Of a stretch of 64,000 nt of DNA, positions 26,008 to 57,934 are shown in pieces (position 1 is the stretch's first letter; every line of letters begins with the position of its first letter). The notes under the pieces were generated by a model. That model did no database searches. It worked only from the letters and a program-made list of their open reading frames with translations, and was not told the origin of the DNA. Both the position numbers and the translations under genes were made by a program. The stretch comes from Ischnura elegans (lineage: Eukaryota > Arthropoda > Insecta > Odonata > Coenagrionidae). The stretch is from the NCBI RefSeq assembly GCF_921293095.1, contig NW_025791658.1, positions 4,588,001 to 4,652,000 on the forward strand, read 5' to 3'.

Positions 26008-26013
26008 TTTATT
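26008..26013 (-). terminator. Polyadenylation signal AATAAA just after the stop
   Basis: AATAAA on the minus strand three bases downstream of the TAG stop. A second AATAAA lies at 25565-25560. The later one is more likely used if the gene has a normal 3' UTR. Confidence 0.35.
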
Positions 26014-26015
26014 AT

Positions 26016-28006
26016 CTACTCTTCACATTGTACGTGAGAGTTGAGGATGTGTTTCCTTAACTTTGATTTTTCCTTGAACACAAAAGAGCAATGATGACAC
26101 CTATACAAATTTTCTGATTTATGAGTACGCATGTGCCTACTAAGGCTGCTACCGACACTGAAAGACTTTGCGCACGCACTGCATTTGTATGGTTTCTCTC
26201 CCGTATGAATACGAGTGTGTTTTCGAAGGTCACCATTCAGAGTGAAATTTTTTGAGCACGCACTGCATTTATATGGTCTCTCTCCTGTATGTATACGCAT
26301 ATGTGTTTGAAGGTTAAAATTCTGACTGAAAGTTTTTGCGCACGCACTGCATTTGTACTGTCTCTCTCTCTCTCCTGTATGTATACGCATGTGTCTCTGA
26401 AGGTTAAAATTCACAGTAAAAGACTTTGCGCACGCACTGCATTTGTAGGGCCTCTCTCTCTCTGTGTGTGTGTACATGTGTCTTTGAAGGTTACCATTCT
26501 GAGTAAAAGATTTTATGCAGACACTGCATTTGTGGGATTTCACTCCAATGGTACATTTTCTCCTTTCGTGGCTCACAGGATTCTCATCCACTAGTTGTAA
26601 AGAGCCTGCTTGGATTCTTCCATCGCCTCCTTGCTTAAACCATTTCTCTCCTTTATTATCCTGCTCCTTCAACGTCTTGGTGTCTTTTACCATTTGATGG
26701 GAATTGCTGCTGAAATTTTCTGTTATACCATCACATCCTTGACTAATTACAGCTGATGTGTTTTCACTCCCGCTGCGAGAATATGGGACACTGTGCGTCA
26801 ACACTTTCCTAATTGTACGAACTGGAAAGAATGAAGAAGAAAGGCCATTAATGGTGCAATTGCTAGAATTGTGTTCAACCATTTTCTTTGAATCACAAGC
26901 ACCATTCGTCATCTGTTGATTTTTTTCTTGTGTTTTGATAATGCTGTCACAAGATTGTGATTTCTCAATATCACTCTTTTGTTTATTTTTGTCATTGCTT
27001 TTTGATAAATAACTGCCAGCAGTTCTCATATTGTTCCTTTTACGAAGGCGAACCTCCAAAACGTCGGGCTTCAGATTATTATGACTGGAAAATTCCTTTA
27101 AACATAACTTGCAGGGTAGTGAGTTGTTGCATACTGCTCCCAAATCTCCTTGCGAATGTCCCTCACGAAATTTATTTGTATTTTCTCGATTTATTTTGAT
27201 ATTTTCATAGCACTTACTCGCACCCAATCCGTTAATGGTGGCACTTTCATTAAATATTCTCTTTTCTGCTGATTGAGCATGAGAATCATGTGGAACATCG
27301 TCGCCATTAGTTTCATCTAATCCATGAGAGGAGTTTGAAAATGATATTTTAGGTGTTTGCTCGAGAGAATTACTTTTGCTTCCATTCCGCGTACAGGGTA
27401 GTTCCTGATCCTCAACTCTTTCTTCTTGGTCTTCTGCTTCAAAGTCTAACGAGTAGTCACCAAAATGAATCTTTAAATGTTCGATAAGGTCATTTTTTCG
27501 GTCGAATACATCTCCACACTCATAGCAATGAAAAACTTCTTTGCTTGATCCACATCCATTATTGGTATTTCTTAGTGTACCATTGCAAATCTCTTTCTTG
27601 CCTTTTTTGACTACCTCCGAGTCATTTATACCTTTAACATTAATTCTATAATCCCTAGCTGTCACAGTTGGTGCTGCGATACTACCTCTGCCCCCATCAT
27701 TCTTGCTCATGGGTACATTTCCACCACTTTTAAATGTGTCATTGGATTCCGCATTACCATTTCCATTTCTGAGTTTGGAGCAAGACATTTCATCTTCACC
27801 ATTGAGTACACAATATGTCTCCAAGTTTCCTTTAGACAATATGCTTTCCTTCTCTTGATGTATTGTTTGAGACCCAGAATCAATGCTATTTCCAGAAGCT
27901 GAAGGAGACGCTGAGCCATCACTTTGACAAATCCTTGCTTTTCTTTTCTTCCGCACATGTGAAGTGGATCTTGTCTGCACTCGCATACAGCTGTGATTTG
28001 GGAGGC
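26016..28006 (-). CDS. PRDM9: PRDM9-like exon 8, linker and zinc-finger array
   Basis: 1991 bases after the acceptor TTTTCTAG, phase 1 in, ending at a TAG at 26018. The long Ser/Asn/Lys-rich linker holds a basic patch (RKKRKAR, a likely nuclear signal) and an isolated C2H2 finger ([21 protein letters not shown]). It also holds a degenerate finger ([14 protein letters not shown] with no histidines). A tandem array closes the protein. The large final exon carrying all fingers is as in vertebrate PRDM9. Confidence 0.92.
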
Positions 28007-31000
28007 CTAGAAAAGAATTATTACGTACTTGTTACAATGTGCCAGCACTTTTACATTCATCCTAATGTTTTTAATTTTGGATACAGGATTAGTTCCTGGT
28101 GGCCCTTCATCTGAGTCCCAAAACAAAATATTCTCATCATGGTGAGAAAAATGCTGGAATAAAATGTAATAATACATTGAAGTGTTGGGAAAAATGATAT
28201 AATTTCATTAATACTAGTTACTCAGAATCACCCCATTTAGGGGAAAACTATATTCCAGACAGGATTTTTAGATTTTACTTAAGGTCAAAATGGCTAACTT
28301 AATGCCAGCTTCTCCTTTTTTTAAACAATTATATGGTAACTCAATTCAGGCTGCATCTTGAAATCATACATCAGAAAGGTTTCAGATTATTTTTATTTTG
28401 CTAGAATGGGTGATTCTCATAATTTTTAGGAGTTAATTAAAGCCCCATATTGGGTGGATACTTGAGAATGCATTGTTTCAGAATGCTTTCTTTTGTAATG
28501 CATTCACATTTAAAGCATTGGAGTTATTCAAGCTAAGCAGTTTGATGTCTTTATTCATTAACCATATGATAAGGAGGTGCAGGCAGGTGATAATAATGAT
28601 ATTATTTTTGTTATTAGCATAATTATGACATTATTTTTGTCATTATTTTCTGGAAGTACGGTCAGGAAATTATTATTCAAGTTGAATTAATTTAAAGTGA
28701 TTTAGTGAGCCTTTCGGTTAGCACCATGACATCTGTTCCTTAACTTCAATCTGAGTACCCCTGTCACAATAATGTGTAATGATAGAGGTTTGCCCTGCCC
28801 AATAACAAGTAAGTGATATTATTAGTAAGTGATATCATAAGAAAGGGAAGATCTTTGATTCTAATTACAAGCAGCCTTAACATTTTTTCCAATTTGTTCC
28901 TGCATTTGCCCCTCTGAATTCATCAGGCACCATGGCACTTTTTGTTTTTATACTACCACAATGTCATCGTCCAACCAATCCAAACCCTTATGAGTTTAGT
29001 GCTCATTATTTCCCTAAAGTTTCACCTGCAGAAGCAGCAGTGAAGCCATCCCTAAGATGTCTCCGGGCAGACCACCCCTTCACACCTATTCTTGCTGTGC
29101 CACAGCATGAATATAATCTACTGGCTGCTTCCTTACTGCTATCATAAGGCTAAAATCTTTCTAGACACTGCAACACTGTTAAGAACAGTGCTGAGGAGAA
29201 AACCAAGACCAACCAGACATCTGTAGAAGATCATCCCATAATTAGAAGCAGAGGTTTAACCGAGGAATATTTTGTGCTGAAGAAAGAACCAAAAAATATG
29301 CCCAGGAGCACTGACGGTGAGAAAGAGCTTTTCTCATAAATTGTAAATACCCATTTGAATGGCATTGAGCATAGCATCAAACTTCATAATAAAGTTCTTT
29401 CATTGACCACCACGACCAAAACTGAGGTTCCTGATATTGGAAAAAGGAATAATTTGTAATATCATTTACCACATGTTAATGCACCCCTTTAGTCAGTACC
29501 ATGAATGTACTTCGTAATAAAAAAAACATTGTAACAGCACTGTTTGTAATAGAGAGAATCCACTCCATTTCCGCAAATGTGACCATTGCTTTACTTTTTT
29601 AAATTGAAGATTTTAATGATCGCATAAACATTGATATTACTCTGTCGTCAGCTTTCAATAATACCATATATCAGTACATGTATGTAAAGACTAAGAGCGT
29701 GAAATTGAGTAAAACATTGTCACTACCACCAAGATCTTGAGTGACTTGTTCCAACGGTGCAAAATAATGCTGGTGGCTATCAACATGAGTTATAGTTCAC
29801 CACATAAATATTAATTCCGTCACAATTTAAGTTGCGCTATGCTTGCAAGTTGGAATTTCAGTTTTTTTTGCAATGTATTTCAAAATTATGAGCATAGTAG
29901 ACTAGAGGGTTAGATTCTTGGTTTATAATCAGGGGTTATATAGTCCCGGACTCTGTTCCTAGATGAAGCCTCCAGATATCCTAAAATAAAATCCTCACTG
30001 ATCAGGTTTTCTCATGGAAAGGATGTGGTCCCCCCTACCTAAATTTGTGAAATTCTTAAAACACATGACTCAATATGGAGTGATATCTAACCTCAAAAGC
30101 CAAACCAACTGCCAGGCTCAACTATTGAATAAATGTTTTGAAATTTCATGGCACATATATTGGAAAAAATCATGCAAGTTGCTACATGAATTCAACCCTT
30201 GTTGTGGAATTCAACCCAACTGCAGTTGTGACACGTTTTCTGGAATAAGATTGAATTTAGGCAGGCACTGGATTTTGTAATCTGAATTTAAGCTGCTATG
30301 CTAAGTATACATATATGGGAACAAAGTGGTGAGTATACCAAGAACCATAATAGGGTGGTTTCCTATTATTTTTTTATTGCCTTAATCGAAAGATTATTAC
30401 TCCTGGAGTACATATTTCACGCTTTTAGATTTTTAAATGACAATATCTATTTTTCGCGATTAAATGAAAAGTGAAAATTTTCAAGCTCGCGAAAACGCGA
30501 CGCTTAAGTATGAATGCCAGGAAATATCTCCGTACGTCGTATTTCTGGTTCCCCCTCCCGCCCGGTGAGGTGACCTTGAGGCGAGGCTTAGCGCTGATAT
30601 GTCGCAGGATGCTAGCGGGTAGCTGAGTACCTTGCTGGATGGTAGCGCTTGGCTTAAAAAAGGTTTATTAATACCTTATCAAACGAAGAAAACTTTCCGA
30701 CCTTAGCCAGTTTTAATAGGTGATTATTAAGACATGTTTCCCTGAGCTCTGTGCCTCGTGCATGCATTGGTAACCTCAGACGATGTATAACTCCTATCCT
30801 CTCGTGTAGAAACTAGGTCCCTGTGACGTTAAGTGGAGTGGAATCGCATGGGCGCCAATCTGGCCTTTTTCAAATGAGGATAAAATTTGACCGTTGCCAT
30901 TCGTCTAAACCGGTATTTCAAAAACCAAATAATTTGTGTATTATGAATACACTAATGGTGGGTAACGAATCGCAATCAATGCCTTTCGTTTTCTTTGATG

Positions 31001-34000
31001 AAGGAAACTACCCTATTGCATAACAATCAATTATAATAATGAAAAGAAGGGTAAAAGATAGATGAATAATGGACAAACGATAAAAATTTTGGGCTTTTTG
31101 TTTGCTTCTTTATTAACATTGCACGATTCGGTGTCTCTTCTTAAAAGATTCAACTCATGAAGCACTAGCAGGGAATTCAAATCCTGGAGATGTGTGCTGA
31201 AATCACGCATAAATAGCATATTCTTGTAAAGTCCGAGTCATTGTCTCATTCCTGTTCCTGCCTTTGACAAAGTGATCGTATACCCATCTGTCGATCATTT
31301 CAAGCTTGTCGAGTTTCGTTCCCCCTGATTTTATATCTTTCTCCCGTATGTAACCGGGGAGACTCTCCGGAGACAATATGTTTAAAATATTTTGCTTTGG
31401 AAATGAGTTCCCTTCACTTCGAAGCCAGCACCACAGTTTTACCACTCCTGCTTTGATGAATCGATGGCACGGAAAGAATAATTCGAAGGGTCAGCTAGCG
31501 ACAAAAATGTCAGTTTAGGGCTTACTCTCAACCAACAGTCAAGTAAAAAAAATGTAAAACGTCCAAAATGAACAAATTAGAAGAGGATGGAACGGATTAC
31601 AAAAAAATGGAGGAGGTGGCAGACTGGAAAAAATTTACTCTCACAGTCTCTCGAACCCTGGAATTTCACATCAGAAGTGCGGTACGCTACCACTAGGCCA
31701 AATCGCTTTTAAACAATTAGTGAAATTTTTTAAATTAAATTCAACGTGACCATATTTTTCAATTTTTAAATGCTTTTTTCTAACAAACCCGGGCGTATTT
31801 GGACAAAACCCTTCATCTGTGTTCCTATCTAAGTGTCCACTTTCAAATAAAAAAGGTTTCATCTTCTTTCTTGACATCAGTTGGGCATAGTCTCCTCGTA
31901 AGCTCCGAATTCATTGAATGCTAATTATACATAACAAAACACACTATTATCTAGCAATCAGTGAATAAATTGATCTGGGAATATTAAGCAGTGAATTCAT
32001 TGATCACATATTTTCAAATTGAAAATAAATGAAAAACTGAATACAAGTACATAGGTACCACACATAGGTGACAGTAATTTATTAGGTAAAATCTACAATT
32101 AATTATTTAACTCCAAACATGTATTTCACCACTATTCCCAAAAAAAATATGACTAAAATTTTAAAACATCAGCAAAAACTTTTGTGGCAAGAAAAGAATG
32201 GTAACGAGAAAATGATAAAAATATGTCAGATGGAATATAATTTGTCTGGTTTGTGACTGAAAGCGAGAACTTAAAAAAAGTCTGACTTTAAAGAGAAAAT
32301 CCTCGCTCAGTTACAATTTTTATGCAGATGACCGCACCTTAGCACTATCTGTGTCCAGTCCATGGCTTTACGTAAATTTTGTGACCACCTTAAAGTGCAA
32401 AGAAATGAATTTAAAAGCAAATGAATCACATTACCATTGTCACGTCCACTATGCTGAGGATTTGAATATTTCTCAGAGGCTGTCCCTATCTTCTGACTCC
32501 TCTCATTGGTTTTCTGGAATCCTGGTACATCAATTCCAAGCTCTTTTCCATAGTCATCTCCGTACCACACCAGCAATTCTACACCTGGCATTATCTCTTG
32601 AGTTGTGCGGTAGTAAATTTCACCCTTGTACTGAAATGCCACGAGGTTCTGTTCTTCCTCATTCCGCGCACAGTTCACATATCTCATCCAGTTTGATCTT
32701 GATGGATTGTATGCATCGATATAGTGAATAACTTTCTTTTCTCTCTTGATCTGTAGGAATAATTTATGGGATTTATGCAATGACCTTACAGAGATAACCT
32801 TCATCCAAAAATGCATGAAAAATACCTATATGCAAAATATAATAAATCTATAGTCTATAGTATATAAAAGATAGTTGAAAATTGTGTTAGGTACACCACT
32901 TATAACTCCAGAACAGCTATACCGATTTTAATTATATTTGGTTTTCTGGATTTGTCTCAGCCCTGGATAACAGAATAAACATTAAAAATAGTAAAAGTTG
33001 ACAAAAAATTGACCTTGATCGTAAGGTTCTTGTTTAAGTAGTTGGTAGCACTGCAAAAGCTATCAAGTGTGCCCTCCTGAAAACATGCAATTCCCTCCAA
33101 ACCCTGTAGCACCTGGTCCATATTTCTTTGAAAAATTGCAGGGGCTGAAGCAATGCCAAAGGGAAGTGTACTATATATAAAGAGGCCCTTGTGTGTATTG
33201 ATGGTACATAGAGCCTGCGAATCCTTATCCAGTAAGAGCTGTTGAAAGGCATTGGACAAACATAAGTTTGGACATTTCCATCTGTGGAATTAAGAGAAGA
33301 TGCAGTTCGATCAGAAATCTTTATTGTGGAAAAGAATTGGTTAGTACCGTTAGTACCCAAGTAAAGGCATTGAAATTTTCAGTGTTAGCAATGAACGCTG
33401 TGAAAAAGGGTAGAAAAAGTCGACACGATATTAATTGCCTACTTGTTTACACGTTTCTGGCAACTGGGTACTGTGTTGTATTTTGCAAAGATTTTATTAA
33501 GCTGCATTTTCTCATTCTCTCATATTGTGTGCAAATGTAAATGAATCCTGCGTCATTGAAAGCTTTTCCCCACTAACTTTGCTGCACGTTAATGACTGCG
33601 TTGGCTGAATAAAAGCTCACTTTTAATTTGCTCCATGCATTGGAAATACTCTTCGATGTTTTGAAAAACTTCTCGGGATGGCGCTCTCATATAATCTTAC
33701 CCGCACGGTATCCTGAGAAGAGTTTTCAAAAGTTGTTCGCCGGGAAAGTGTTAAATCTCTTCGATGTTTCCAGGGAAATAAATATTCAAATGATGATAAT
33801 TTCACGTTATTTTATTGAGATATGAGAGAATGAGAATCCACGCGATTGGTCAACTCAGGGAATAATATTACGAATTTGATTGGCAATGCTCGAGATGCAA
33901 CTCTCAGACTATATTAATGGGTATTGATTTTGTATCTAATAACGTAAGAATACGCGGAAGAGTTCATGAATGAAACTTCACAGTGAATTGAATGAAATTT

Positions 34001-46000: not shown

Positions 46001-49000
46001 CTCGGTTAAGCCACACCAGCTCACCCGCAAAGATAAAGTGAACAGACCTTAAAAAGTGTCACAATTGCCTATAATATTTTGCCGTAAAATTTTCTGCGGC
46101 TGAAATTCTGTTGCATAACCCCTAGCGAGATTTTAAACAAAATGGTTCACGAGTAGGACAAGCATCGCAATGTGATGGTGAATGCACAGAGAGGATAGGA
46201 ACTCTTCCCATTCCCCCTTATGGGACGACGTGAGGGGAAGGTATGTCTCGATTTTAACCAAAGAAAAACACCTGCAATTTCATAAATGATTCTCTATATT
46301 TCTGCCACAGAAACTAAATTTAATTACATAAGACACCTTATATCTAACAGACACTTTTAGAAAATTACAAATATTGAGAGCATCAACGGAATCTGGTGGA
46401 ATGCATCCAATATACAGGCTGGGTAAACACCGTACACTACCACTGTCTTTAAGCATAACCCAAATGTCTTTGTAAGCAGCATTCGCATCTTTCAGCAAAT
46501 AGTCTTTGCATTTTAAATACTTTTTGCAACCAGGATATAGCAACAATCGAGTATTAACATGTCTTGAATACTTAGAATTGTCTATATCAGTATAGTCACC
46601 AACTTGTATAGCAGCAGGAACAGTATATACTTTATAATCTTCTGCATTATAAAGTCTACTAATGAATTTAGTGAACACAGCTTTCGCATCTTTCTCAACA
46701 AGAGCTGCGGTAACGGCATCTTCTTTACTCGGAGTAGGAAGAGCGGTACCCCAGGCAAGATCATTGACATATTTTTTAGCGACCTGATCAGCATTTTCCC
46801 CATAATAATCAAATTCCTCCACGGAAGAACTTAACTGTTTGACATAAACCTTTATATTTCGTATCATGAATCTAGAATATTGTTCACAAAACCCTTTTAA
46901 CTCATGAGAACAAGATAAACAAACGACTCCAATCTAAACGCCTCAATTCAGTCTGCCACGTATCGTTCACTAAGTAAAAATAACGATGCATTCCCTGAAG
47001 CATCCATTAAAATTTCAGATCAAGATCCAATGTCTTCAGCTACTTCGGATCCAAGAATCTGGTGAAGGGTAATATCCACAGATATTAGGATCCAAGGTAT
47101 ACGATCTGGCCATCCCTAGTATAAACCACAGGTTGTCAAAAAGTAATTTTAAAAAGCCAATCATGCTGTTGATAATTCAAGGTGTTTACTCCTCACATAT
47201 GGAATCTGTACTTGTCATTCTCAGAGAAATCTTACAAATCAATATACCGTACGCAATCTTATCAATCGCTTGAGTTCACATAATGTAAAGTCAAGTAAGA
47301 GTTTCAAAAAAGTTACACAGAATATCATACATTGTTCAATGTGTCTTCAATTGAATATGAATGCTTAAAACCACCTTTAAAGAATGCTTACAAATCAAAA
47401 TGCTATTCAAAATCTTCATCTATGAATACATCTATGGAACAACGAGCTCACATAAAGTTTAGCCATATAAGACTTCAGGCACGCCGACTTACAAAAAATA
47501 TTGGGGGGGCCCAAACCGGGCATCTTTTCCCGGAAAATTTTAAAAGTAGTGAATTGTAAGTCTTTTATGCATTTTATAAGAGTCATATGATCAAAGTTAG
47601 AACCCTGATAACTCTAATCTCGATATCTGGACACTCCGGGGAAAATCGACAAGCCTGACACTTTTTTCCTCACACCCATAACGAATTATTGGGGGGGCTC
47701 GGGCCCCCTCAAGCCCCATGGAGTCGGCGCCACTGTAAGACTTTCAAAAAAGTTACAGAAACTAGGCATTACCTCAGCATCTTCAATAATAGTTAATGGA
47801 CCGTGTTGTGGACAGTCACCTTCCCATTCCATCTGACAGTCATCGCAATCTGTTCAATGGAGAAGAATATATTTTAATTGCGATGCATAAAAAAGAATTA
47901 TTACATTCCTGATGTTATACTTTTCCATATCAATTACGTATTTTCCATTTCATGATTGAGCCAATTTTCAATACAGATACATAAAAATGTAGAATTCCAG
48001 CCAAAAAGTTGAAGTTACTTACATCAGCATAAGATCCATGTATATACACCTTAAATGTTTGAGCACCAATTACAATTGATATGATTTATCACCAATAAAA
48101 GTTAACAATTAAACTTGCCCAAACATGGATTCTCACTTATTTAAGTGTACCGGGACTAGCTACGGTGATAACTTTTTACGGAGTCACCCGCAATGCACAA
48201 ATAGTGCGAAAAATCCACAGAGGAAAAATCATTCGCCTTGACCGGGATTCGAACCCGGATCCCTCGATTTCCGGTTGAGTGCTTTAGCCAGTTAAGCTAC
48301 CGAGGCGTCATTCTCCCCTGTGGAATAGTCCACAAATTTCCACGGGGGAGAATGACGCCTCGGTAGCTTAACTGGCTAAAGCACTCGATCGGAAATCGAG
48401 GGATCCAGGTTCGAATCCCGGTCAAGGCGAATGATTTTTCCTCTGTGGATTTTTCGCACTATGGATTCTCACAATAGGGATTGCATTTAATAAGGTTACC
48501 AAATTCATTTGGTGGTATCTGCAGTATGATTCATCAATTTTATTTCTTCACTGTGGGAAAATGCTAAACCTTAAACCATACAAATTTTTGGCAGAAAAAA
48601 ATCCACCAACTCTGGGTAAAATATTCCACCACATTAATGAACTGATCAAAGAAATTATATCACCTCAAAGCCACCACCTTAAGAATTTAAAGTAAAACAA
48701 GATATAAAATTTCTCTTAAATGAAAAAATGGGAGGGCACATGCCCCGATGCCCACTCGCTAAATCCGCATATGAATATAAGAATCACCATGCCATTTCAT
48801 CCATCAGGTACATATTTATGCATATCAGTTATGACCTGGTCAAACAAATACAGAGGTTTATAGTATAAAAAAAGGAAATATATAAACATTAAAGAAACAT
48901 GTAAGGGCAAAAGCATTGGACCAGAAGTGCAAATGATAAGTACCACTTGTTAGAAGAAAAAAAATGAATGAAAAGAAATTCCATCCAAAACAAAAATGCT

Positions 49001-52000
49001 GGGAATGCTGTGTGGACAAAATAAATGGTTGCCTATACTGGAAACATACTTAAAGGGACATTCTTAAGGGACTTAACTACACACTCCATCATCAAGGCAA
49101 TTTTGTTGTGATTGTTTTTGTTTGAATATGGCTGGTAATCTCCCAACTATCGTATTACTGTATTCATTTGTTTTTTTGTTCTTCACCGGAAGTTTGTTCT
49201 TTTAATAAATTGCAGTTTCGCCATGTTATTCAACACGTGTGGTCGTGTTCATTTACCACTCCTCCTGAATCTAAAACCATCGTCCCCCCAGTAACTATTT
49301 ACAACAGGTTATGGGCCCATCGCACTTTCCACTGCGCTGCTGAATTCAGATTTCTTTATTTTTGTGGTAAACCGTGTGGTAGCAAAGATGCAAGAATCTC
49401 AGGTCACTTCGCAGGCGTATGGTTTCGAAAAACTCGTTGGGCGGGAAAACTATTATGACTGGTCGTTCGCGATGACGAACTATTTACGTCGTAATGGATT
49501 GTGGAGTTGTGTCCAGGGAAGTGATAATGGCGAAGGTAAAGAACGTAGGGACGAGAAAGCTTTAGCAGACATTTGCCTTATGGTGCAGCCTGTGGTATAT
49601 CCCCATGTAAGGCCAGCTAAAACGGCAAAGGATGCCTGGAATGCTTTATCCAAGGCATATGAGGATAAAGGCAAGTGGCGGTATGTATCCCTGCTTCGTT
49701 CTATGTGCCAAATGAGGCTAGAAAAGTTCGAAACCATGGACACTTATATCAGCGAGGTGATAATGTTGGCACACAAGCTCGAGGGTATCGGTGAGCCGAT
49801 GGCGGAAAACTTTGTTGCAGCAATGTTGCTTCAGGGGCTGCCAAATTCGTATGACAATCTTGTCATGGCCATCACGAGTGGGGAGAATGTCTTAAATTTG
49901 GATCGTGTGAAGACGATTTTGTTAGACGAAAGCTACCGGAAGAGCGTGAGTGCCGGTCAAAATGCGAGTGTTCCCGAAACCACTGCCCTGTATTCCAAGG
50001 GCAAGAAGTACAACTCTTCGACCATGGCTGGGAGTTCATCAGTTGTGAAGGCGTGGAAGTGCTGGAACTGTGGTGAAAAGGGGCATCTTAAAACACAATG
50101 CCCGCAGTCGCAGAAGAAGAGGGATCCGAACGAGAACAGAGCCGAGGTTAAGGGAGAGAAGAAAGGAGAAAATAGGAAACCGCTGAGAAGTCTTCTGTGT
50201 GCCCTGTCGGCTGCATCGTGTGACTCAGATTGGTTTGTAGATTCCGGAGCATCCGTGCATATGTCACCCCATGAAGACCGTATGCATGATTATTGTCGTG
50301 ACGTTGACGGTCATATTGAGATTACTGTCGGAAATAACGGTAAGCTTAAAAGCAGAGGTGTTGGATCTGTGAACCTAAATGTAAGTGATCACATTTGTGA
50401 ACTTAAACATGTTGTGCATGTTCCTGGATTGAAAGAAAATTTGATTTCTGTAAGTCAAGTTGCCGACAAAGGGATCACTGTTGTTTATGATAAAAAGGGT
50501 TGTAAAATGTATGATGATGACTTTGTCTGTAATGGTACAGAACTAGCTACTGCAAGTAGAACGAGTAATGGGTTATACCGTTTGGATGTTAAATCAAAGC
50601 AGGCATTTGTGTGCAATATTAATGATTATGAATTGTGGCATCAAAGAATGGGTCATTTGGGTATGCAAAATATGATATTGTTGCGGGACAAATTAAGTGA
50701 TTGCATTGATTTCAAGTATGAACCTGCTGATGATTGTAATGCTTGTGTTCTTGGAAAACAGCACAGAAATCCTTTTCCCAAGGAAGGAGGTACTAGGGCA
50801 GATGAGGTACTAGGTCTTGTTCACTCTGATCTGTGTGATTTTGGTTCTAATGTAAAGTCATGGAGTGGGTCAAGGTACATTCTTACTTTGATAGATGATT
50901 TCTCCCGCAGAACGACTGTTTATTTCTTAAAGAGCAAGTCTGAAACCAAGCAGAGAGTGATTGATTTTGTCAATATGGCTGAAAATGTAACTGGTAAAAG
51001 GTTGAAAATTTTCAGGTCTGATAATGGAACTGAGTTCTTGAGTGATGAGTTACAGAATTTCTTTAAAAGTAGAGGAATCACACATCAGAGAACTGTAAGG
51101 TATACTCCACAGCAAAATGGTGTAGCAGAGAGACTGAATCGCACCATTCTGGAGAAAGTGCGATGCATGCTCTTTCACGCAGGAAGTCCTAAGCAGATGT
51201 GGGCAGAAGCAGCTAACACTGCTGTGTACTTATTAAACAGAAGCCCCCACAGGAGTGTCCCTGACAATGTCCCTGAGGTCCTGTGGTCAGGTAAGAAAGT
51301 CAGCTATGATCAGCTCAAGGTGTTTGGTTCTGATGCATATGCTCTAATCCCTGAGGAAATAAGGGGGGATAAACTAAATCCTAGGAGCAAGAAAATGGTC
51401 TTTGTGGGTTACTCTTCAGCTTCCAAGGGGTATCGTTTGTTTAATCCTGAAAACCCGAGAGAAATTCTTGTTGCTCGTGATGTTAAATTCATTGAAAATA
51501 GTTTCACTGCAATTAAGGCTATTGGTAAAGGGAAGAAGGGTTCTTTCAGTATGCCTGTGCCTGTAAACTTAGATGATGATTTGCCATTTACTTCAGTGTG
51601 TAATGTCAGTGATGATGTTCATTGTCAGAGTGAAACAAATGCCAATGTCAATCACATTCATGGAGCAGAGAATGATATTGAAAATCTGTCTTTTGCGGAT
51701 GCAAATGAGGTGCAAATAAATCCTGGAAATAATGTCGATGAAGGTGAAAGGAGGTATCCTATGAGGGAAAGGCAAAGGAAGGAATTTCCTGGTTTTGAGT
51801 TATATTTAGCATGTGATGAAAAGGTAGAACCTACATCAGTTACCGAGGCATTAAATGGTACTGATAAAATTCATTGGAAAGAAGCTATGGAAAGAGAGAT
51901 CAGTTCTTTTCAGGAAAACGATGTGTGGGATCTTGTAGACAGACCTAAGGGTGGAAATATAGTGCAATGCAAATGGGTTTTTAAATTGAAGCGGAATGGG

Positions 52001-54482
52001 GAGGGAGAAGTGGACAAGTATAAGGCTCGCCTGGTAGCTAAGGGTTTCTCTCAGCGTTATGGTATTGATTATCTTGACACTTTTGCTCCTGTGGTGAGAC
52101 ATGATACCTTACGATTGTGTTTTTCAATTGCTGTTGCTCATGGTTTGCATGTACATCACTTGGATGTTTCCACAGCCTTTTTGAATGGTTCACTAAGTGA
52201 AGACATTTTCATGTACCAACCGGAAGGTTTTGTTTCAGATGCAAGTAAAGTGTATAAGTTAAAGAAGGCCATTTATGGCCTGAAACAGGCTTCGCGTTCC
52301 TGGTATGAGAGAATGGATGAAGTCGTATTAAGTGTTGGTTTTAAGAAATCTCAACATGAGCCTTGTGTTTATTTTTGGAGAGATGGTGCATCCATGGTTA
52401 TAATATGTGTTTATGTTGATGACTTTTTTGTATTCTTTAATGATGAAGTTCAAGCTGAGAAACTGAAACAAAAGCTCCACTCTTGTTTTAAGGTAAAAGA
52501 CTTAGGATCAGTCGTGGATTGCCTGGGAATGAGGGTAGAAATGGGTAATGGTAAAGTAAAGTTGAACCAAAAACAGGTAATTTTGAACTTGCTGAGTAAG
52601 GTGGGGATGGCAGAATGTAAATCTGTGTCAACCCCTATGGTTCCTGGCACTCGACTGACCAAGGGTGAATCGATAACGTGTGATAGTGTACCTTACCAAC
52701 AAGTGATTGGAAGTTTACTGTATTTATCAGTGTGTACCAGGCCTGATATATCCTATGCTACCAATTACCTCAGCCAGTTCAACAACTGCTATGGAAATGA
52801 ACACTGGCAGTGTGTGAAAAGAGTGTTAAGGTATTTAAAAGGAACAATTGATGCAGGAATAGAATTCCGAAGGACTGAGAATAATCCGGATGTTTGTGGT
52901 TTTGTTGATGCGTCATTTGCTAATGACGTCAACAGAAAATCAGTGACTGGGTATGTTTTTGTGTCTGCTGGTGGACCAATCTGCTGGGAGAGTAAAAAAC
53001 AAAGTGTAACTGCCTTGTCTTCAACCGAGGCAGAGTATATTGCCATTGACTCTGCAGGTAGGAAGGCCACTTACTTGAAGGGGTTACTCTCTGAGTTATG
53101 TGGTAGGAAGGGGCCAATTCTTTTATGGAATGATAACCAGAGTGCACTAAAATTAGCCTCTGACAATGGATTGCATGCTCGCACTCAGCATATAGAAGTG
53201 AAGTTTCATCACATCAGGGAACTTGTTAAGCATAAGAAGGTTGTCCTCAATTACATGGAATCTGAAAAAATGATTGCCGATGTGTTTACTAAGGCACTTA
53301 ATGTGACTGCACACCGCAAGTGCATTATTCCTCTGGGTATGGTTAATTGTAAAAATGCAATGTAAAGTTGGTAGATTAAGGGAGAGTGTTGTGATTGTTT
53401 TTGTTTGAATATGGCTGGTAATCTCCCAACTATCGTATTACTGTATTCATTTGTTTTTTTGTTCTTCACCGGAAGTTTGTTCTTTTAATAAATTGCAGTT
53501 TCGCCATGTTATTCAACACGTGTGGTCGTGTTCATTTACCACTCCTCCTGAATCTAAAACCATCGTCCCCCCAGTAACTATTTACAACAAATTTCATATA
53601 CTGAATTGATGATGAGTAAAAATGCAAAAGAAAAAATAAATACTCACAAATATAGTCGTCATCATCAGGCACTTCTTCCTCTTTGTAATTCACACGCGCC
53701 AAGCTTCGCTTCGGATAGCGTCTTTCTGGCTTTGCATCCTCTTTCTCTGTTACAGAAATACAGAATACATTATTGACTGCATAAAATACACTACGAAAAA
53801 CACAATTTTATCCTGTTGTACTCATTCAAAATGCAAACGAATGGGCAAGTCTAACTGAGAAATACTCATCCAAACTATTCTAACCTTCCAATCTTGTGAT
53901 ATTAAAAATATTTTCCATGCATAAAAACACATTATTTCATTTCATCAAGATGCATTTCCCTAATTTTTTATGCTATACAATAATATTTACTATACACATA
54001 CTGGTTCTTTTGGTGAGGAGTTTCGATATCTGTTCAAATTTTGAGCTAACAATTTTGGTCACAGCATTGACAATCCTTCGTAATGCAACTGCAACTCTCA
54101 AGCTCCTGCAATATCAACAATACCTTAGTTTTACATTATAAAATAAGACGTCTACATAATAATTATTATTTCTCAATGTTACTGTCACACAAATTCAAAA
54201 TATCCTTCACCTGAAAATTTGCTCATGGTATAGTTACTGTATTAATGAAATACAGAACACGTAAATAGGTACCTTTTAATATCCTCAGTAGTGAATCCCA
54301 AAAATTCCTCTGTTTCCTCATCATTTTCAACAAACTCAACCTGAAAAGATCATTGCCAAAATCATCAGTTTGTGAGACAAAAAGTAGACCATAACAGCAA
54401 CTAATCACTCAGGAGCATAATAAATTACAAAATTATTACTTTCTGGCATTTACGTCCTCTCGATCGGCTCATCGTGATCAAT
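26016..54482 (-). CDS. PRDM9: PRDM9-like histone methyltransferase with C2H2 array (whole gene)
   Basis: Eight coding exons, 962 codons: 54472-54440, 54340-54273, 54105-54002, 53746-53648, 47849-47773, 38783-38583, 32750-32435, 28006-26016. All introns are GT-AG and all phases join without a stop. Domains in order: SSXRD-like [13 protein letters not shown] (residues 79-91); zinc knuckle with C103, C106, C114 and H117; PR/SET about 150-267 with [18 protein letters not shown] and WYGD motifs; a lone C2H2 finger about 460-480; a tandem C2H2 array about 792-956. Known of the family: PRDM9 methylates H3K4 and H3K36 where its fingers bind, and directs meiotic double-strand breaks in many vertebrates. 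Inferred: the same nuclear, germline role here. PRDM11 shares the SET type but lacks a finger array, so PRDM9 is the better match. No KRAB box was found. The introns are heavily invaded by transposons, yet the exons are clean. Confidence 0.88.
26037..26531 (-). repeat. Tandem C2H2 zinc-finger repeats (84-90 bp units) in exon 8
   Basis: Five near-identical fingers of the form KCSxCxKxF...L..H...H and a divergent sixth ([17 protein letters not shown]). Using positions -1, 2, 3 and 6 of the helix, the five read Q-G-N-R, V-F-N-R, Q-F-N-T, L-G-D-K and V-S-S-R on an otherwise shared frame. Two linkers carry an extra Glu-Arg pair (TERER, TGERER) encoded by an expanded CT/GA run, against the usual TGEKP. 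Confidence 0.9.
28007..30351. other. Intron 7 of the PRDM9-like gene, distal part
   Basis: 2.3 kb of AT-rich intron next to the last exon. No transposon ends or coding exons are recognised. Family B begins at its far end. Confidence 0.4.
30353..31013. mobile_element. Family B TIR element, copy 3
   Basis: 661 bases, ends GGGTGGTTTCC and GGAAACTACCC with TA on both sides. Same length as copy 4. In intron 7. Confidence 0.85.
31030..31445 (-). pseudogene. Tigger/pogo transposase N-terminal (HTH) remnant
   Basis: The minus frame encodes [20 protein letters not shown] and [11 protein letters not shown], then after a stop and frameshift [10 protein letters not shown]. The spacing resembles the CENP-B/Tc5-type helix-turn-helix of pogo transposases. 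No catalytic part. Weak match by eye. Confidence 0.4.
31446..32434. other. Intron 7 next to exon 7, nothing recognised
   Basis: AT-rich sequence without supported exons or element ends. Confidence 0.35.
32435..32750 (-). CDS. PRDM9: PRDM9-like exon 7, C-terminal half of PR/SET
   Basis: 316 bases from ATTCCTACAG to a GTAATG donor, phase 0 in and 1 out. It encodes [20 protein letters not shown], then IYYRT and [15 protein letters not shown], almost identical to the vertebrate PRDM9 SET core. The tyrosines of YYRT and WYGD, important for methyl transfer in the family, are present. The open frame reads on past the donor, but that tail is intronic. The donor phase fits exon 8 exactly. Confidence 0.92.
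33040..33330 (-). mobile_element. Gypsy reverse transcriptase fragment
   Basis: The minus-strand frame reads [19 protein letters not shown] sequence, then [18 protein letters not shown] and MDQVLQGL, standard gypsy RT motifs. Only about 70 codons remain and the catalytic YxDD block is missing. It points opposite to the gypsy fragment at 34142, so the two are not one simple copy. Confidence 0.8.
33331..34141. other. Intron 6 between the gypsy fragments
   Basis: No coding or element ends recognised. A self-complementary stretch around CTTCTCGGGATGG / CCTGAGAAGAG lies near 33668-33722. Confidence 0.3.
34142..36575 (+). mobile_element. Gypsy retrotransposon fragment (RNase H and integrase), broken
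   Basis: The plus-strand frame opens in RT/RNase H ([51 protein letters not shown]), then the integrase zinc-binding part and catalytic core ([23 protein letters not shown]). A TGG-to-TGA change makes an in-frame stop at 35057-35059 inside the HHCC region (VW*PNL). The expected catalytic Glu of the NGxAE motif is Asp here. The frame breaks at a hAT insertion and resumes after 36361 with [11 protein letters not shown] and a frameshifted WNRHIDQ. No LTRs found. Dead element in intron 6. Confidence 0.9.
35628..36352 (+). mobile_element. hAT element nested in the gypsy fragment
   Basis: Ends CAGGGGTTCCCAAACTGG and TTTGGGAACCTCTG, flanked by the 8-bp duplication GTCTAGAC (35620-35627, 36353-36360). 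Inside, 35844-36046 encodes the C-terminal hAT dimerisation motif ([16 protein letters not shown], then ESDLRCALS), as in ZBED5/SCAND3-type transposases. It is internally deleted. A G13 run lies near the right end. Confidence 0.93.
36823..37240 (-). mobile_element. LINE 3' end (endonuclease-RT type), truncated
   Basis: On the minus strand the frame reads ...[20 protein letters not shown]... to a stop, then a TGATGATGATGA tail. This is the C-terminus of a non-LTR retrotransposon ORF2. The same family is at 61755-62311. 5' truncation is usual for LINE copies. Confidence 0.8.
37241..38582. other. Intron 6 next to exon 6, mostly plain sequence
   Basis: Begins with a C16 tract (37261-37276). The rest is AT-rich intron without recognised elements or exons. 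Confidence 0.35.
38583..38783 (-). CDS. PRDM9: PRDM9-like exon 6, N-terminal half of PR/SET
   Basis: 201 bases between CTCTAG and GTACAG, phase 0 both ends, 67 codons. It contains [20 protein letters not shown] and a GYCWE end. These match the family pattern AGLGVW...LPLGLHFGPYEG...GYSW. The FGPY tyrosine of the active site is kept. Confidence 0.9.
38784..39611. other. Intron 5 next to exon 6, nothing recognised
   Basis: AT-rich intron with no element ends or coding exons that I can support. Confidence 0.35.
39612..40422. mobile_element. hAT-like MITE with GGGTTCCCACTC ends
   Basis: Ends CGGGGTTCCCACTC and GAGTGGGAACCCTG. Internally AAATTCACGG and TTTTTCCAGGTTTT recur several times. The 8-base flanks are similar but not identical, so the insertion is old. 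Confidence 0.65.
40569..41161 (-). mobile_element. Family C pogo-like MITE, copy 3
   Basis: Reverse copy with CAGTGGAACCTCG at one end and a mutated GTTCCACTG at the other, TA on both sides. 593 bases. In intron 5. Confidence 0.85.
41650..42652. mobile_element. TIR element of unknown superfamily in intron 5
   Basis: Ends TGCCCAGTAAACA and TGTTCACTGGGCA (imperfect inverted copies), about 1.0 kb. Subterminal zones on both sides are full of TGCAGC, CAGCAGT and GCATCAG words. No clear target duplication and no ORF. Confidence 0.5.
43334..43994. mobile_element. Family B TIR element, copy 4
   Basis: 661 bases with GGGTGGTTTCC and GGAAACTACCC ends, TA on both sides. Nested in the hAT element. Confidence 0.85.
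44401..45115. mobile_element. Family E pogo-like MITE
   Basis: Starts CAGATACACTCCCAATTATC and ends GGATAATCGGGAGTCTGCCG, TA on both sides. The word GGATAATC and variants recur near both ends. No transposase; the GC-rich middle gives only chance frames. Confidence 0.75.
45116..46279. other. Interior of the hAT element, no gene seen
   Basis: Contains family F-specific sequence (GGACAAGCATCGCA region near 46155), a GGGCCTCGCTGAAGG duplicate at 45240-45275 and a GA run near 45295. No coding region is supported. Confidence 0.35.
46280..46867 (-). CDS. Unrecognised 195-codon ORF inside the hAT element
   Basis: ATG to stop, 195 codons, same strand as the PRDM9-like gene. I do not recognise the family. 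The product has a mixed globular composition with several Lys-Tyr pairs and cysteines ([15 protein letters not shown]), with no signal peptide, transmembrane run or transposase motif. It is not low-complexity or a repeat shadow. The matching stretch is absent from the shorter family F copy at 8315-8762, so this roughly 750-base block is either cargo, an insertion, or part of the longer ancestral element. No splice sites suggest it is an exon of the host gene. Confidence 0.4.
   Translation of the reverse strand: MIRNIKVYVKQLSSSVEEFDYYGENADQVAKKYVNDLAWGTALPTPSKEDAVTAALVEKDAKAVFTKFISRLYNAEDYKVYTVPAAIQVGDYTDIDNSKYSRHVNTRLLLYPGCKKYLKCKDYLLKDANAAYKDIWVMLKDSGSVRCLPSLYIGCIPPDSVDALNICNFLKVSVRYKVSYVIKFSFCGRNIENHL
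47480..47746. repeat. Short DNA repeat with GCCGACT / AGTCGGC ends
   Basis: Starts GCCGACTTAC with a run of seven G, and ends CCATGGAGTCGGCGCC after GGGCCCCCTC. The ends are imperfect inverted copies. Probably a non-autonomous DNA element. It lies 27 bases from exon 5. Confidence 0.35.
47773..47849 (-). CDS. PRDM9: PRDM9-like exon 5, zinc knuckle
   Basis: 77 bases between CATTGAACAG and GTAATG, phase 1 in and 0 out. It encodes [18 protein letters not shown], the C-x2-C-x7-C-x2-H knuckle that precedes the SET domain in PRDM9. It aligns residue for residue with the family's YCEMCQ...C..HGP. Confidence 0.88.
48234..48306 (-). tRNA. tRNA-like sequence, left arm (tRNA-derived)
   Basis: 73 bases fold as a cloverleaf with T8-A9, a GG-containing D loop and a perfect B box (GGTTCGAATCC). 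The acceptor stem has a mismatch at pair 5-68 and the anticodon stem has one mismatch. By position the anticodon would be GGA, but base 33 is C instead of T and there is no long serine variable arm. Probably a retired or SINE-type tRNA, not a translating one. Confidence 0.4.
48357..48429 (+). tRNA. tRNA-like sequence, right arm (tRNA-derived)
   Basis: Inverted copy of the left arm. Here the anticodon stem pairs fully (CTCGA/TCGAG), but the T stem has an A for G change. It shares C33 and the acceptor mismatch, so both arms descend from the same altered tRNA. Confidence 0.4.
49104..49306 (+). repeat. Copia 5' LTR
   Basis: 203 bases from TGTTGTGATTG to TTTACAACA. AATAAA occurs inside (CTTTTAATAAATTGC), the likely polyadenylation signal. 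No clear TATA box. Confidence 0.95.
49388..53365 (+). CDS. Copia gag-pol polyprotein
   Basis: One open frame; the first ATG is at 49388, giving 1325 codons (the frame is open a little upstream with no ATG). Order: gag ([12 protein letters not shown]), zinc knuckle [14 protein letters not shown] (about 225-238), aspartic protease [12 protein letters not shown] (about 282), GAG-pre-integrase HQRMGHL, integrase with HSDLCDFG and RSDNGTEF (about 542), reverse transcriptase with [10 protein letters not shown] and YVDDFF (about 1008), then RNase H with SSTEAEYIA and NQSALKLA. Integrase before RT is the copia order. All catalytic motifs are present and there is no stop or frameshift, so it may be active. 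Confidence 0.96.
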   Translation: MQESQVTSQAYGFEKLVGRENYYDWSFAMTNYLRRNGLWSCVQGSDNGEGKERRDEKALADICLMVQPVVYPHVRPAKTAKDAWNALSKAYEDKGKWRYVSLLRSMCQMRLEKFETMDTYISEVIMLAHKLEGIGEPMAENFVAAMLLQGLPNSYDNLVMAITSGENVLNLDRVKTILLDESYRKSVSAGQNASVPETTALYSKGKKYNSSTMAGSSSVVKAWKCWNCGEKGHLKTQCPQSQKKRDPNENRAEVKGEKKGENRKPLRSLLCALSAASCDSDWFVDSGASVHMSPHEDRMHDYCRDVDGHIEITVGNNGKLKSRGVGSVNLNVSDHICELKHVVHVPGLKENLISVSQVADKGITVVYDKKGCKMYDDDFVCNGTELATASRTSNGLYRLDVKSKQAFVCNINDYELWHQRMGHLGMQNMILLRDKLSDCIDFKYEPADDCNACVLGKQHRNPFPKEGGTRADEVLGLVHSDLCDFGSNVKSWSGSRYILTLIDDFSRRTTVYFLKSKSETKQRVIDFVNMAENVTGKRLKIFRSDNGTEFLSDELQNFFKSRGITHQRTVRYTPQQNGVAERLNRTILEKVRCMLFHAGSPKQMWAEAANTAVYLLNRSPHRSVPDNVPEVLWSGKKVSYDQLKVFGSDAYALIPEEIRGDKLNPRSKKMVFVGYSSASKGYRLFNPENPREILVARDVKFIENSFTAIKAIGKGKKGSFSMPVPVNLDDDLPFTSVCNVSDDVHCQSETNANVNHIHGAENDIENLSFADANEVQINPGNNVDEGERRYPMRERQRKEFPGFELYLACDEKVEPTSVTEALNGTDKIHWKEAMEREISSFQENDVWDLVDRPKGGNIVQCKWVFKLKRNGEGEVDKYKARLVAKGFSQRYGIDYLDTFAPVVRHDTLRLCFSIAVAHGLHVHHLDVSTAFLNGSLSEDIFMYQPEGFVSDASKVYKLKKAIYGLKQASRSWYERMDEVVLSVGFKKSQHEPCVYFWRDGASMVIICVYVDDFFVFFNDEVQAEKLKQKLHSCFKVKDLGSVVDCLGMRVEMGNGKVKLNQKQVILNLLSKVGMAECKSVSTPMVPGTRLTKGESITCDSVPYQQVIGSLLYLSVCTRPDISYATNYLSQFNNCYGNEHWQCVKRVLRYLKGTIDAGIEFRRTENNPDVCGFVDASFANDVNRKSVTGYVFVSAGGPICWESKKQSVTALSSTEAEYIAIDSAGRKATYLKGLLSELCGRKGPILLWNDNQSALKLASDNGLHARTQHIEVKFHHIRELVKHKKVVLNYMESEKMIADVFTKALNVTAHRKCIIPLGMVNCKNAM
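53387..53589 (+). repeat. Copia 3' LTR
   Basis: Same 203 bases as the 5' LTR; no difference seen by eye. It starts directly after the polypurine run. Confidence 0.95.
53648..53746 (-). CDS. PRDM9: PRDM9-like exon 4, SSXRD-like motif
   Basis: 99 bases between CTGTAACAG and GTGAGTA, phase 1 both ends. It encodes [17 protein letters not shown] followed by a DDDDYI stretch. Vertebrate PRDM9 has a matching YSLRERK...YKE...DDDYL segment just before its zinc knuckle. The copia element sits in the next intron, 59 bases away. Confidence 0.85.
54002..54105 (-). CDS. PRDM9: PRDM9-like exon 3, basic helix-prone segment
   Basis: 104 bases between TGATATTGCAG and GTATGTG. Phase 2 in and phase 1 out, exactly what exons 2 and 4 require. 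It encodes a basic, hydrophobic-alternating segment ([16 protein letters not shown] inside) with no named domain. The exon was found from the phase constraint, then supported by its good splice sites. Confidence 0.6.
54273..54340 (-). CDS. PRDM9: PRDM9-like exon 2, acidic N-terminus
   Basis: 68 bases between CAG and GTACCT, phase 0 in and phase 2 out. It encodes an acidic stretch containing [17 protein letters not shown] do not recognise a named domain; it is not a KRAB box. Confidence 0.6.
54440..54482 (-). CDS. PRDM9: PRDM9-like exon 1, start codon
   Basis: The acceptor is TTTCTACTTCAG with a pyrimidine run. The exon holds the ATG at 54472 and 11 codons ([11 protein letters not shown]), then GTAATA. 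Phase 0 out. It is short and basic. A start further upstream would need an exon I did not find. Confidence 0.6.
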
Positions 54483-54709
54483 CTGAAGTAGAAAGAGTTG
54501 AGGATTAAAAAAAAAACAAGTTAATGTTCACTACAGAAAAAGTTACTTCATTCATGCATTTAGAATGTGTTGTAATATTAATTGCATCACAATTACATAA
54601 CCAATGACATTACTGAACACTTTAGCATCAATAATACAGGCATCATTTTAATAAGAGTGAAGAGAACCAAACAAAATCATTTTGATTGGATTAATGCACA
54701 TGTACTTAC

Positions 54710-54840
54710 CAAATAAAAAGCACTTTCCGTACACTGAAAGAATGGGCTACTTTACAAGTAGCAACCACTCTTCTCTGATGCAGCTTTCCACAATAATGCC
54801 CAGAGATAGGCAAGAATAGCCACGCATCTGGTAGGTGGAG
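54710..54840 (-). other. Putative 5' UTR exon of the PRDM9-like gene
   Basis: On the minus strand the sequence ends in TATTTG followed by GTAAGTAC, a strong donor at 54710. Joined to the acceptor before 54482, the last base of this exon makes a TGA in frame just upstream of the ATG at 54472. That supports this ATG as the start. The 5' limit is unknown; a pyrimidine-rich stretch ending in CAG lies just inside, so the exon could be as short as 24 bases. Confidence 0.45.
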
Positions 54841-56051
54841 AATACTACATGATTTAAAAATTTTATGCATTGATAAAGATATTTAAAGTCTTGGTAATGT
54901 TTCACTTAATTTTATTATTAGAGCTAGCATTTACAAAATTTTATATTGTATTAATCATCATATTCAAGAACAGACGATAAGACATCATGAAATATGATCT
55001 TGACATAGAGGCACGTTGCTATACCATCATAATGTAATGCGATCGGGCTCTGATACTGACGAGGTTCCAGACTATTCATAAAAGATAATTATATTAACAT
55101 GGAATTGGAGCACAACAATATTTAAGGTGAAACTTAAGAATAAACACCATACGAAGTACTGGCTCGAAGACTGAAGTCGAACTCCCCGGGGAGTGGATAT
55201 GGTTAACAAGATATCAGTTTTTTCAAAATAAATGCTTTAAAATATTAGCGTAAATTGCTCGTAGGTATGCGATTAAACAGTTGGATTCCTACTTCTTAAA
55301 GATACGTTACGACGACGACGATTCTCAAATTTCGTTCGGGAATATAAACTCGGAGGAGGTCCAGCTTCCGCTGAGATTTGCCACCTCTTCACCATGAATG
55401 AATGCGCATTTACTCAAACAAAGAAGGCAAATGGCACGACGAGAGTATAGGCACCAATGTAATTTAAATACTTCCACGTTATTAATAACATATGACACTC
55501 AGTAGATACAATTAAAATTTCACGAAAACCGTCAAAGCGGGGTAGGGTTCAGCAATACCCTCAAGTCATTCATCCCGCGATACTTAGTTTTCATGATTGG
55601 CTCTTCGGCGTTCATTAATAACTTTTAAGAAAAAATCATTTTTATACTGGAATTGTTCCACAGACAATTGCTTACTACAAATTAACCAACTTCTGCGAAA
55701 GTCACACAATGGCGGCATATGCTATTTGAATTGTTAGTAACTTCTGTTTGAAATAACCAACTGTTTCCTAGGTTACGCGCTACAAACCGCCCCGTTTGAG
55801 CTTCGCGACAGTGTTTTGTCAATTCGTTGACGCGCATTACTTGAATAGCTGATTAAACGGTTCAAAATAGATAAACGAAGTAGCTGCTGTGTATAACGAT
55901 AATTCTGCTTCCTCCTACTACCGTAATGCCTTTTATTAAATGCATTATCTGTTACATGCAGATTCAATCCTTTCATGGTCCGTGTATAATGTCTGGCACG
56001 TAAAAGTTAATTATTATTTTTCCTCTTCTATTCTTGACCTTGTTTAATACA
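54711..56051. other. Upstream region of the PRDM9-like gene, no further gene seen
   Basis: This 1.3 kb lies between the 5' UTR exon and the Penelope-like element. It is AT-rich and has no convincing coding exon on either strand. A more GC-rich patch near 55780-55850 could be the promoter, but I see no TATA box or other decisive motif. An upstream KRAB-type exon was looked for and not recognised. Confidence 0.3.
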
Positions 56052-57889: not shown

Positions 57890-57934
57890 CCTAGGGTTTT
57901 TTTATGATATATATATATATATATATATATATAA

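Follow-up and report, generated by a model that had tools for sequence, protein, structure and literature searches.

A PRDM9 ortholog in the damselfly genome

The window, a stretch of 64,000 nucleotides from the damselfly Ischnura elegans (C15:4588001-4652000 in the 1.72-Gb assembly), carries on its minus strand a gene that is a genuine arthropod ortholog of PRDM9, of the type without the aKRAB domain; it is one of three copies (A, the window gene, B, and C) on the same contig. The gene model of copy A, rebuilt from the window sequence, comprises eight coding exons from 54472 to 26016, all with GT-AG splice sites and consistent phases, and its coding sequence of 2889 nt specifies 962 amino acids and a stop with no internal stop codon. 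The protein is composed, in order, of a short N-terminus, a predicted helix, an SSXRD-like motif, a zinc knuckle, a PR/SET domain, a long linker with an isolated finger, and a C2H2 array (Table 1). The Pfam models PRDM2_PR (3.1e-45), SET (2.4e-7), and zf-C2H2 (4.6e-27) matched the protein, and the PRDM4-type zinc knuckle model scored 21.1, below its cut-off of 25.8. The SSXRD-like motif preceding the knuckle was located by pattern and position, the Pfam SSXRD model being absent at E ≤ 1, and the Pfam KRAB model likewise gave no match at E ≤ 1 in the 962-residue protein.

Each of the three copies retains intact FGPY, IYYRT, and WYGD motifs. The eight phase-consistent exons with these domains, as called by the original prediction, are borne out by the splice model, the motifs, and Pfam (the SSXRD-like motif by pattern only), and the catalytic tyrosine motifs that it had described as intact are present and aligned with human Y276, Y341, and Y357, in the numbering of PMC5519329. 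Its gene span, extending to 54710, needs correction: coding begins at 54472, and 54710 immediately precedes a GT donor that may belong to a non-coding leader exon. Chance open reading frames (ORFs) were ruled out, since the splice sites, the phases, and the three paralogs all agree. An extra exon between exons 7 and 8 (28155-28029), a short open stretch, was rejected because joining it led to a stop or to the wrong array frame.

The identity of the gene was established by searches at the sequence and fold levels and by phylogeny. A search of 5.8 billion proteins returned 383 matches at E ≤ 0.001; among the best 120 of these, the NCBI I. elegans protein named "PRDM9-like" (P0001) was 100% identical to residues 1-300 of the window protein, and the paralog P0002 was 94% identical. 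Among PDB sequences, the PRDM9 SET domain scored best with 150.9 bits (range 146-151; 2.5e-43), followed by PRDM2 with 90.8 bits (7.6e-25) and PRDM11 with 76.0 bits. The predicted model, confident for the SET domain and the knuckle and with a predicted local distance difference test (pLDDT) score below 50 for most of the remainder, retrieved PRDM9 (4c1q) first in a fold search (1.1e-21; template modeling score 0.89 on the target), with PRDM11 (1.8e-15) as the first non-PRDM9 chain. A SET tree of 41 rows united the three copies from Ischnura with Hetaerina in one clade (support 100/99), nested in a weakly supported group (80/80) of 18 insect and barnacle genes; genes of Panulirus, a tick, and horseshoe crabs lay elsewhere in the PRDM9 part of the tree. 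Because the outgroup branches are long and PRDM11 is absent from this tree, it lends support to the finer placement without proving it.

A PRDM gene other than PRDM9 was ruled out by the PDB sequence scores, the fold search, and the SET tree. This holds for PRDM11 in particular, since the SET domain is nearer to PRDM9 by sequence and fold and a finger array is present; the PR/SET domain of the damselfly is related to that of PRDM11, but the PRDM11 match scores half of that with PRDM9. PRDM11 is not known to carry a finger array. The earlier assignment of the gene to the PRDM9 group, and to an arthropod, is thus upheld by both structure-database searches and by the I. elegans protein match, as well as by the SET phylogeny that had been named as its check, with PRDM2 and MECOM falling outside (92/78).

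Table 1. Features of copy A (window coordinates) and positions of the three gene copies.
Feature	Position	Strand	Evidence or remark
Exon 1, coding part	54440..54472	-	Exon begins at 54482 after AG; same in copies B and C
Exon 2, acidic linker	54273..54340	-	Length 80 nt in copies B and C
Exon 3, predicted helix	54002..54105	-	Splice model and structure prediction
Exon 4, SSXRD-like motif	53648..53746	-	Splice model and motif pattern
Exon 5, zinc knuckle CDDC...CPQH	47773..47849	-	Splice model, Pfam, motif pattern
Exon 6, PR/SET first half	38583..38783	-	Splice model and PDB sequence match
FGPY tyrosine codon, aa 178, aligned with human Y276	38631..38633	-	PRDM9 alignment; invariant in 25-row alignment
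Exon 7, PR/SET second half	32435..32750	-	Splice model and PDB sequence match
YYRT tyrosine codon, aa 241, aligned with human Y341	32610..32612	-	PRDM9 alignment, 25-row alignment
WYGD tyrosine codon, aa 257, aligned with human Y357	32562..32564	-	PRDM9 alignment, 25-row alignment
Exon 8: linker and one isolated finger (27530-27462), array, stop	26016..28006	-	Splice model
C2H2 array: 5 canonical fingers and variant last one	26034..26531	-	84-bp period, 4.3 copies, 79% matches
In-frame GT-AG segment, 504 nt, left out of NCBI model P0001 (794 aa)	26073..26576	-	Removes finger array
Duplicated unit: DNA aligning collinearly with copy B, copy C, or both	24099..56013	-	1.5 kb only upstream of exon 1
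Copy A	Window locus	-	962 aa, 6 array fingers including variant last one
Copy B	C15:714667-747564	+	864 aa, identical to P0002, 6 array fingers including variant last one
Copy C	C15:673208-651332	-	948 aa, 9 array fingers including variant last one

Three copies and their finger arrays

A whole-genome search with the SET query yielded 13 matches, six of which correspond to the two SET exons of each of the three copies, all on contig C15, and seven to diverged or broken pieces. The ORFs are intact in all three copies (864-962 codons), with the same exon structure and canonical splice sites. At most one replacement separates the SET domains of any two copies, and the ratio of replacement to silent substitution rates (dN/dS) ranges from 0 to 0.14; the SET domain is under purifying selection. 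Silent divergence is about 0.02-0.04 in exons 1-7 (about 0.04 for A versus B or C) and 0.23-0.24 in exon 8 before the array (A versus B or C). This combination of low values in exons 1-7 and high values in exon 8 suggests gene conversion of the 5' half, by which that part of the copies may have been homogenized.

Differences between the arrays of the three copies are concentrated at the residues expected to contact DNA, taken as helix positions -1, 2, 3, and 6. In six paired fingers (one-sided Fisher tests, three tests uncorrected), amino-acid differences between A and B affected 15/24 contact positions and 28/84 positions elsewhere (p = 0.01); the corresponding values were 8/24 and 11/84 for B and C (p = 0.027), and 14/24 and 31/84 for A and C (p = 0.051). 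The contact codons of B and C showed ten replacement differences and no silent ones. Within arrays, the contact share of diversity was 0.38 in A, 0.37 in B, and 0.35 in C, with exact subset ranks of 0.003, 0.038, and 0.009, respectively. Of 15 further arthropod rows in which four or more fingers could be scored, 9 also showed contact enrichment at rank 0.05; Timema and one row from thrips had too few fingers for scoring. Unusual homogenization of the paralog fingers was considered and rejected: mean nucleotide identity was 0.75-0.78 within arrays and 0.74-0.78 between copies, and the Ischnura fingers are not recently homogenized.

Close to the beginning of contig C15 (C15:651332-747564), copies B and C are arranged as an inverted pair. 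If C15 corresponds to chromosome 13 unlocalized scaffold 2, they could belong to the zinc-finger genes reported in the female color-morph locus (PMC10781644). Three of the seven diverged or broken pieces lie on another contig, C13 (C13:17376277, 17443859, and 19656661), as PRDM9-like PR-exon relics of 59-65% identity; two contain a stop, and finger arrays 54-66% identical to that of copy B lie nearby. More generally, among the C2H2-array matches listed (out of at least 239, with 150 of 3181 first-look candidates scored), most were located on a few contigs of 10-21 Mb (C13, C14, C16, and C17), a large expansion of finger genes involving perhaps one chromosome.

The putative reader gene and known PRDM9 systems

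Searching the Ischnura genome for zf-CW gave one match at E ≤ 1 (7.5e-8, C5:34525288-34525389, minus strand), whose nearest solved proteins were ZCWPW1 (1.2e-8) and ZCWPW2 (2.4e-7), followed by MORC4 (9.7e-5). In Hetaerina, the protein P0197, named "transcriptional regulator ATRX homolog", contains zf-CW at residues 86-130 followed by PWWP at 149-242; compared with solved proteins, its PWWP alone matched NSD2 best and its zf-CW matched ZCWPW1. The PWWP stretch of this protein corresponded to three Ischnura exons (C5:34516973-34514477), which share the strand of the zf-CW exon and lie 8-11 kb downstream of it, and a Ladona fragment (P0198) also contains zf-CW. Since zf-CW and PWWP exons lie on one strand and the Hetaerina protein has both, the gene at C5:34514477-34525389 is, on its predicted domain content, of the ZCWPW1/2 type and present in damselflies. 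In vertebrates, the presence of ZCWPW1/2 is coupled to that of PRDM9, possibly to its KRAB domain (PMC8892340). By this analogy, the retained ZCWPW1/2-like reader argues for a function of damselfly PRDM9.

PRDM9 chooses recombination sites in many vertebrates, and its KRAB domain is thought to be necessary for that role. With vertebrate PRDM9 (Meisetz; KRAB-SSXRD-SET-ZF), the damselfly gene shares the SSXRD-like motif, the zinc knuckle, the PR/SET domain with the equivalents of Y276, Y341, and Y357, the isolated finger between SET and array, and a C-terminal C2H2 array in the last exon. It differs in that no aKRAB was found, in its arrays of six, six, and nine fingers that are less homogenized, and in the presence of three copies. 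PRDM9 without aKRAB also occurs as the alpha gene of teleosts and in platypus; the damselfly, an insect, retains the SSXRD-like motif and all tyrosines, in three copies. The PRDM9 genes of a sea anemone (Nematostella), a snail (Lottia), and a worm (Capitella) belong to the same group and have a C2H2 array. Concerted or accelerated evolution of their fingers has been published, concerted evolution being described in all three and positive selection in Nematostella and at one codon of Capitella (Oliver 2009, PMC2779102); the main text of that paper contains neither the word arthropod nor the word insect.

PRDM9-like proteins were detected, among the matches listed, in odonates, cockroaches, termites, a stick insect, thrips, hoppers, a beetle, a barnacle, a spiny lobster, a tick, and horseshoe crabs; many of them carry aKRAB, and several deposited models lack fingers. 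An aKRAB profile built from 58 non-redundant segments, out of 98 found in fetched proteins, matched 18/29 arthropod rows at E 2e-13 or better, four of them in the training set and 14 outside it. Positive rows included Limulus, two termites, the cockroach Diploptera, both Frankliniella thrips, Macrosteles, Laodelphax, a tick, a barnacle, and a beetle. The profile left unmatched 11/29 rows: Periplaneta, two of three Zootermopsis models, Timema, Tachypleus, Homalodisca, one thrips model, Panulirus, Hetaerina, and both Ischnura rows; some appear to be truncated at the N-terminus. The cockroach and termite proteins P0009, P0011, and P0012, which have the same knuckle and SET motifs, are among the nearest relatives in insects other than odonates. 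P0011 and P0012 carry aKRAB and P0009, as deposited, does not, while the arrays of P0009 and P0012 vary mainly at contact residues; P0009 (cockroach) and P0012 (termite; Cryptotermes with aKRAB) seem better candidates than the damselfly gene for a system of PRDM9-directed recombination.

In the literature, arthropods have been counted with three PRDM genes (PMC2082429, PMC3445564), and insect and mussel aKRAB sequences have been mentioned. No report on the function of PRDM9 in arthropods or insects was found in the literature searched, which did not cover bioRxiv. NCBI names many arthropod proteins "PRDM9-like", and this kind of gene is already known; the Ischnura gene is a member described in more detail, and its combination of traits is unusual. 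Through it one can ask directly whether insects use a PRDM9 system, and since the SSXRD-like motif, the catalytic SET residues, the fingers, and the reader partner remain, it also provides a test of whether aKRAB is indispensable. With PRDM9-like proteins in this range of arthropods, how PRDM9-directed recombination arose, was lost, and works can be tested in insects amenable to crossing and mapping.

Possible role, rival readings, and neighboring elements

The analysis directly establishes the structure of the gene, its domains and orthology, the purifying selection on SET, the number of copies and their differing arrays, and the presence of a zf-CW/PWWP gene. The reading that we favor, with a probability of roughly 0.6, is that the locus is one of three vertically inherited damselfly PRDM9 copies without a recognizable aKRAB, which would act in germ-line, array-targeted histone H3 methylation together with the ZCWPW1/2-like reader. 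Enzymatic activity, germ-line expression, DNA targeting, and the link to the reader are inferred by analogy with PRDM9: the C2H2 array would bind DNA and choose sites; the PR/SET domain would trimethylate H3K4, and probably also H3K36, near them in the germ line; and the ZCWPW1/2-like protein would read the double H3K4/H3K36 mark, after which recombination or repair could be influenced. DNA-targeted H3K4/H3K36 methylation is likely on this analogy. Control of hotspots, that is, placement of meiotic breaks, is possible with the odds against it; the retained SSXRD-like motif, tyrosines, and reader favor such a role, and the missing aKRAB disfavors it. The broader proposal, that damselflies direct recombination through a three-copy PRDM9 without aKRAB, with arrays diverging between copies and a ZCWPW1/2-like reader, is put forward just as tentatively. 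If true, PRDM9-directed recombination would be ancestral to arthropods, still used in insects, and separable from aKRAB.

Several results weigh against a PRDM9-type role, the strongest argument against hotspot control being the absence of aKRAB. Across the 104 kb surrounding copy A and the 110 kb surrounding copies B and C, the best profile match was 13 residues long (E 0.077) and on the wrong strand, and the search of the whole genome with a single termite aKRAB sequence gave a best E of 1.7 with a stop inside. Because these local and whole-genome searches were negative and the duplicated upstream sequence is short (1.5 kb), aKRAB is treated here as absent; a far or very diverged exon may exist. 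The gene was originally predicted to be a "complete" PRDM9, which it is not, since aKRAB, a defining domain (PMC5519329), was not found near any copy. In mouse, aKRAB is required, and its loss in fish has been read as a change of function (PMC11600626); in fish and platypus, PRDM9 persists without aKRAB and, in the reading of the papers, without the hotspot role.

The arrays give further grounds for caution. The dN/dS of the whole array is 0.39-0.44, not above 1, and positive selection over the whole array is unsupported. In 12 other damselfly arrays, taken from the best-scoring non-PRDM9 matches, the contact share was 0.27-0.37; A exceeded 12/12, B 11/12, and C 9/12 of them, by small margins. 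The published criterion for a complete PRDM9 places its array in the top 5% of the species' arrays for rapid evolution (PMC5519329), and these controls, two of which (L047 and L048) are copies of each other, are too few for a 5% rank. Elsewhere, the contact share reached 0.83 in mouse, 0.67 in cockroach P0009, 0.65 in termite P0012, and 0.55 in Hetaerina, where the signal is plainer, and 0.44 in P0011; the damselfly lies far below mouse, P0009, and P0012. Contact enrichment was missing from 6/15 arthropod rows (four barnacle rows, Homalodisca, and one thrips row). Finally, P0001 equals the 962-residue protein minus exactly 168 residues, the missing in-frame GT-AG segment holding the array. The functional PRDM9-type system of the original prediction stands only as a possibility: the retained reader argues for it, but the array is barely more diversified at contact residues than the 12 controls and is spliced out of the NCBI model.

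An unlikely alternative that nonetheless deserves serious weight is that the gene, having no aKRAB, no longer takes part in recombination and serves, in a manner comparable to the fish PRDM9 lacking aKRAB, as a germ-line or somatic chromatin regulator, a methyltransferase with fingers, breaks being placed at promoters or elsewhere. The failure of both the local profile and the termite-sequence searches to find aKRAB agrees with it, as do the array diversity, near that of other damselfly arrays, and the swordtail fish, whose gene lacks KRAB and SSXRD and which behave as knock-outs (PMC5519329). However, unlike the fish beta genes, the damselfly gene keeps the SSXRD-like motif and the three tyrosines, a ZCWPW1/2-like reader is kept as well, and the contact residues show the greatest differences between paralogs.

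If the splicing of P0001 is real, copy A makes a finger-less enzyme. Copy A could then be turning PRDM7-like, its main transcript skipping the fingers to yield a free methyltransferase and copies B and C doing the DNA-targeted work, which we regard as quite unlikely. P0001 lacks the array through the 504-nt segment and the NCBI protein of copy B keeps it, and a finger-less PRDM7 form has been described in human (PMC2082429). Primate PRDM7, a PRDM9 paralog, can lack fingers, as does the NCBI model of copy A. Nevertheless, the damselfly gene retains all catalytic tyrosines and an array whose frame is intact in copy A, with the finger cysteines and histidines conserved; moreover, the NCBI model looks automatic, and the CCTGTGAG donor-like site is present in B and C too.

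Rather improbable is a complete PRDM9 with vertebrate-like function, whose aKRAB was missed in a distant or diverged 5' exon. Exon 1 is open from the ATG back to the acceptor (A TTG ATC ACG ATG), its MSRSRGRK start sits, by eye, where aKRAB-B proteins show FM followed by basic residues, and the genome-wide search rested on a single termite sequence. Against this, the local profile matches were chance-like (13-18 residues in those inspected), a splice from the donor at 54709 into exon 1 creates a TGA in that frame, and the duplicated unit includes just 1.5 kb upstream. That the copies are young pseudogenes, as a recent copia insertion in intron 4 of copy A and the stop-bearing relics on C13 might suggest, is scarcely credible given three long open frames with canonical splice sites and a SET dN/dS of up to 0.14.

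Mobile elements and repeats were identified within and around copy A. A Copia-type long terminal repeat (LTR) element occupies 49104-53589 of the window, in intron 4, with LTRs 100% identical across 203 bp; since intron 4 is shorter in the other copies (424 bp in B, about 1 kb in C) and the LTRs are identical, the insertion is specific to copy A and very recent. The same intron contains an inverted pair of tRNA-Ser(GGA) genes or tRNA-derived repeats (window 48233-48307 and 48356-48430). Just upstream of the gene, an ORF at 56555-57901 on the minus strand, presumably Penelope-like, matches reverse transcriptase (below cut-off) and GIY-YIG. On the other side, an intact transposase ORF (18291-19988, minus strand; DDE_Tnp_1_7, E 1.6e-86) is located, which we take to be of the piggyBac type.

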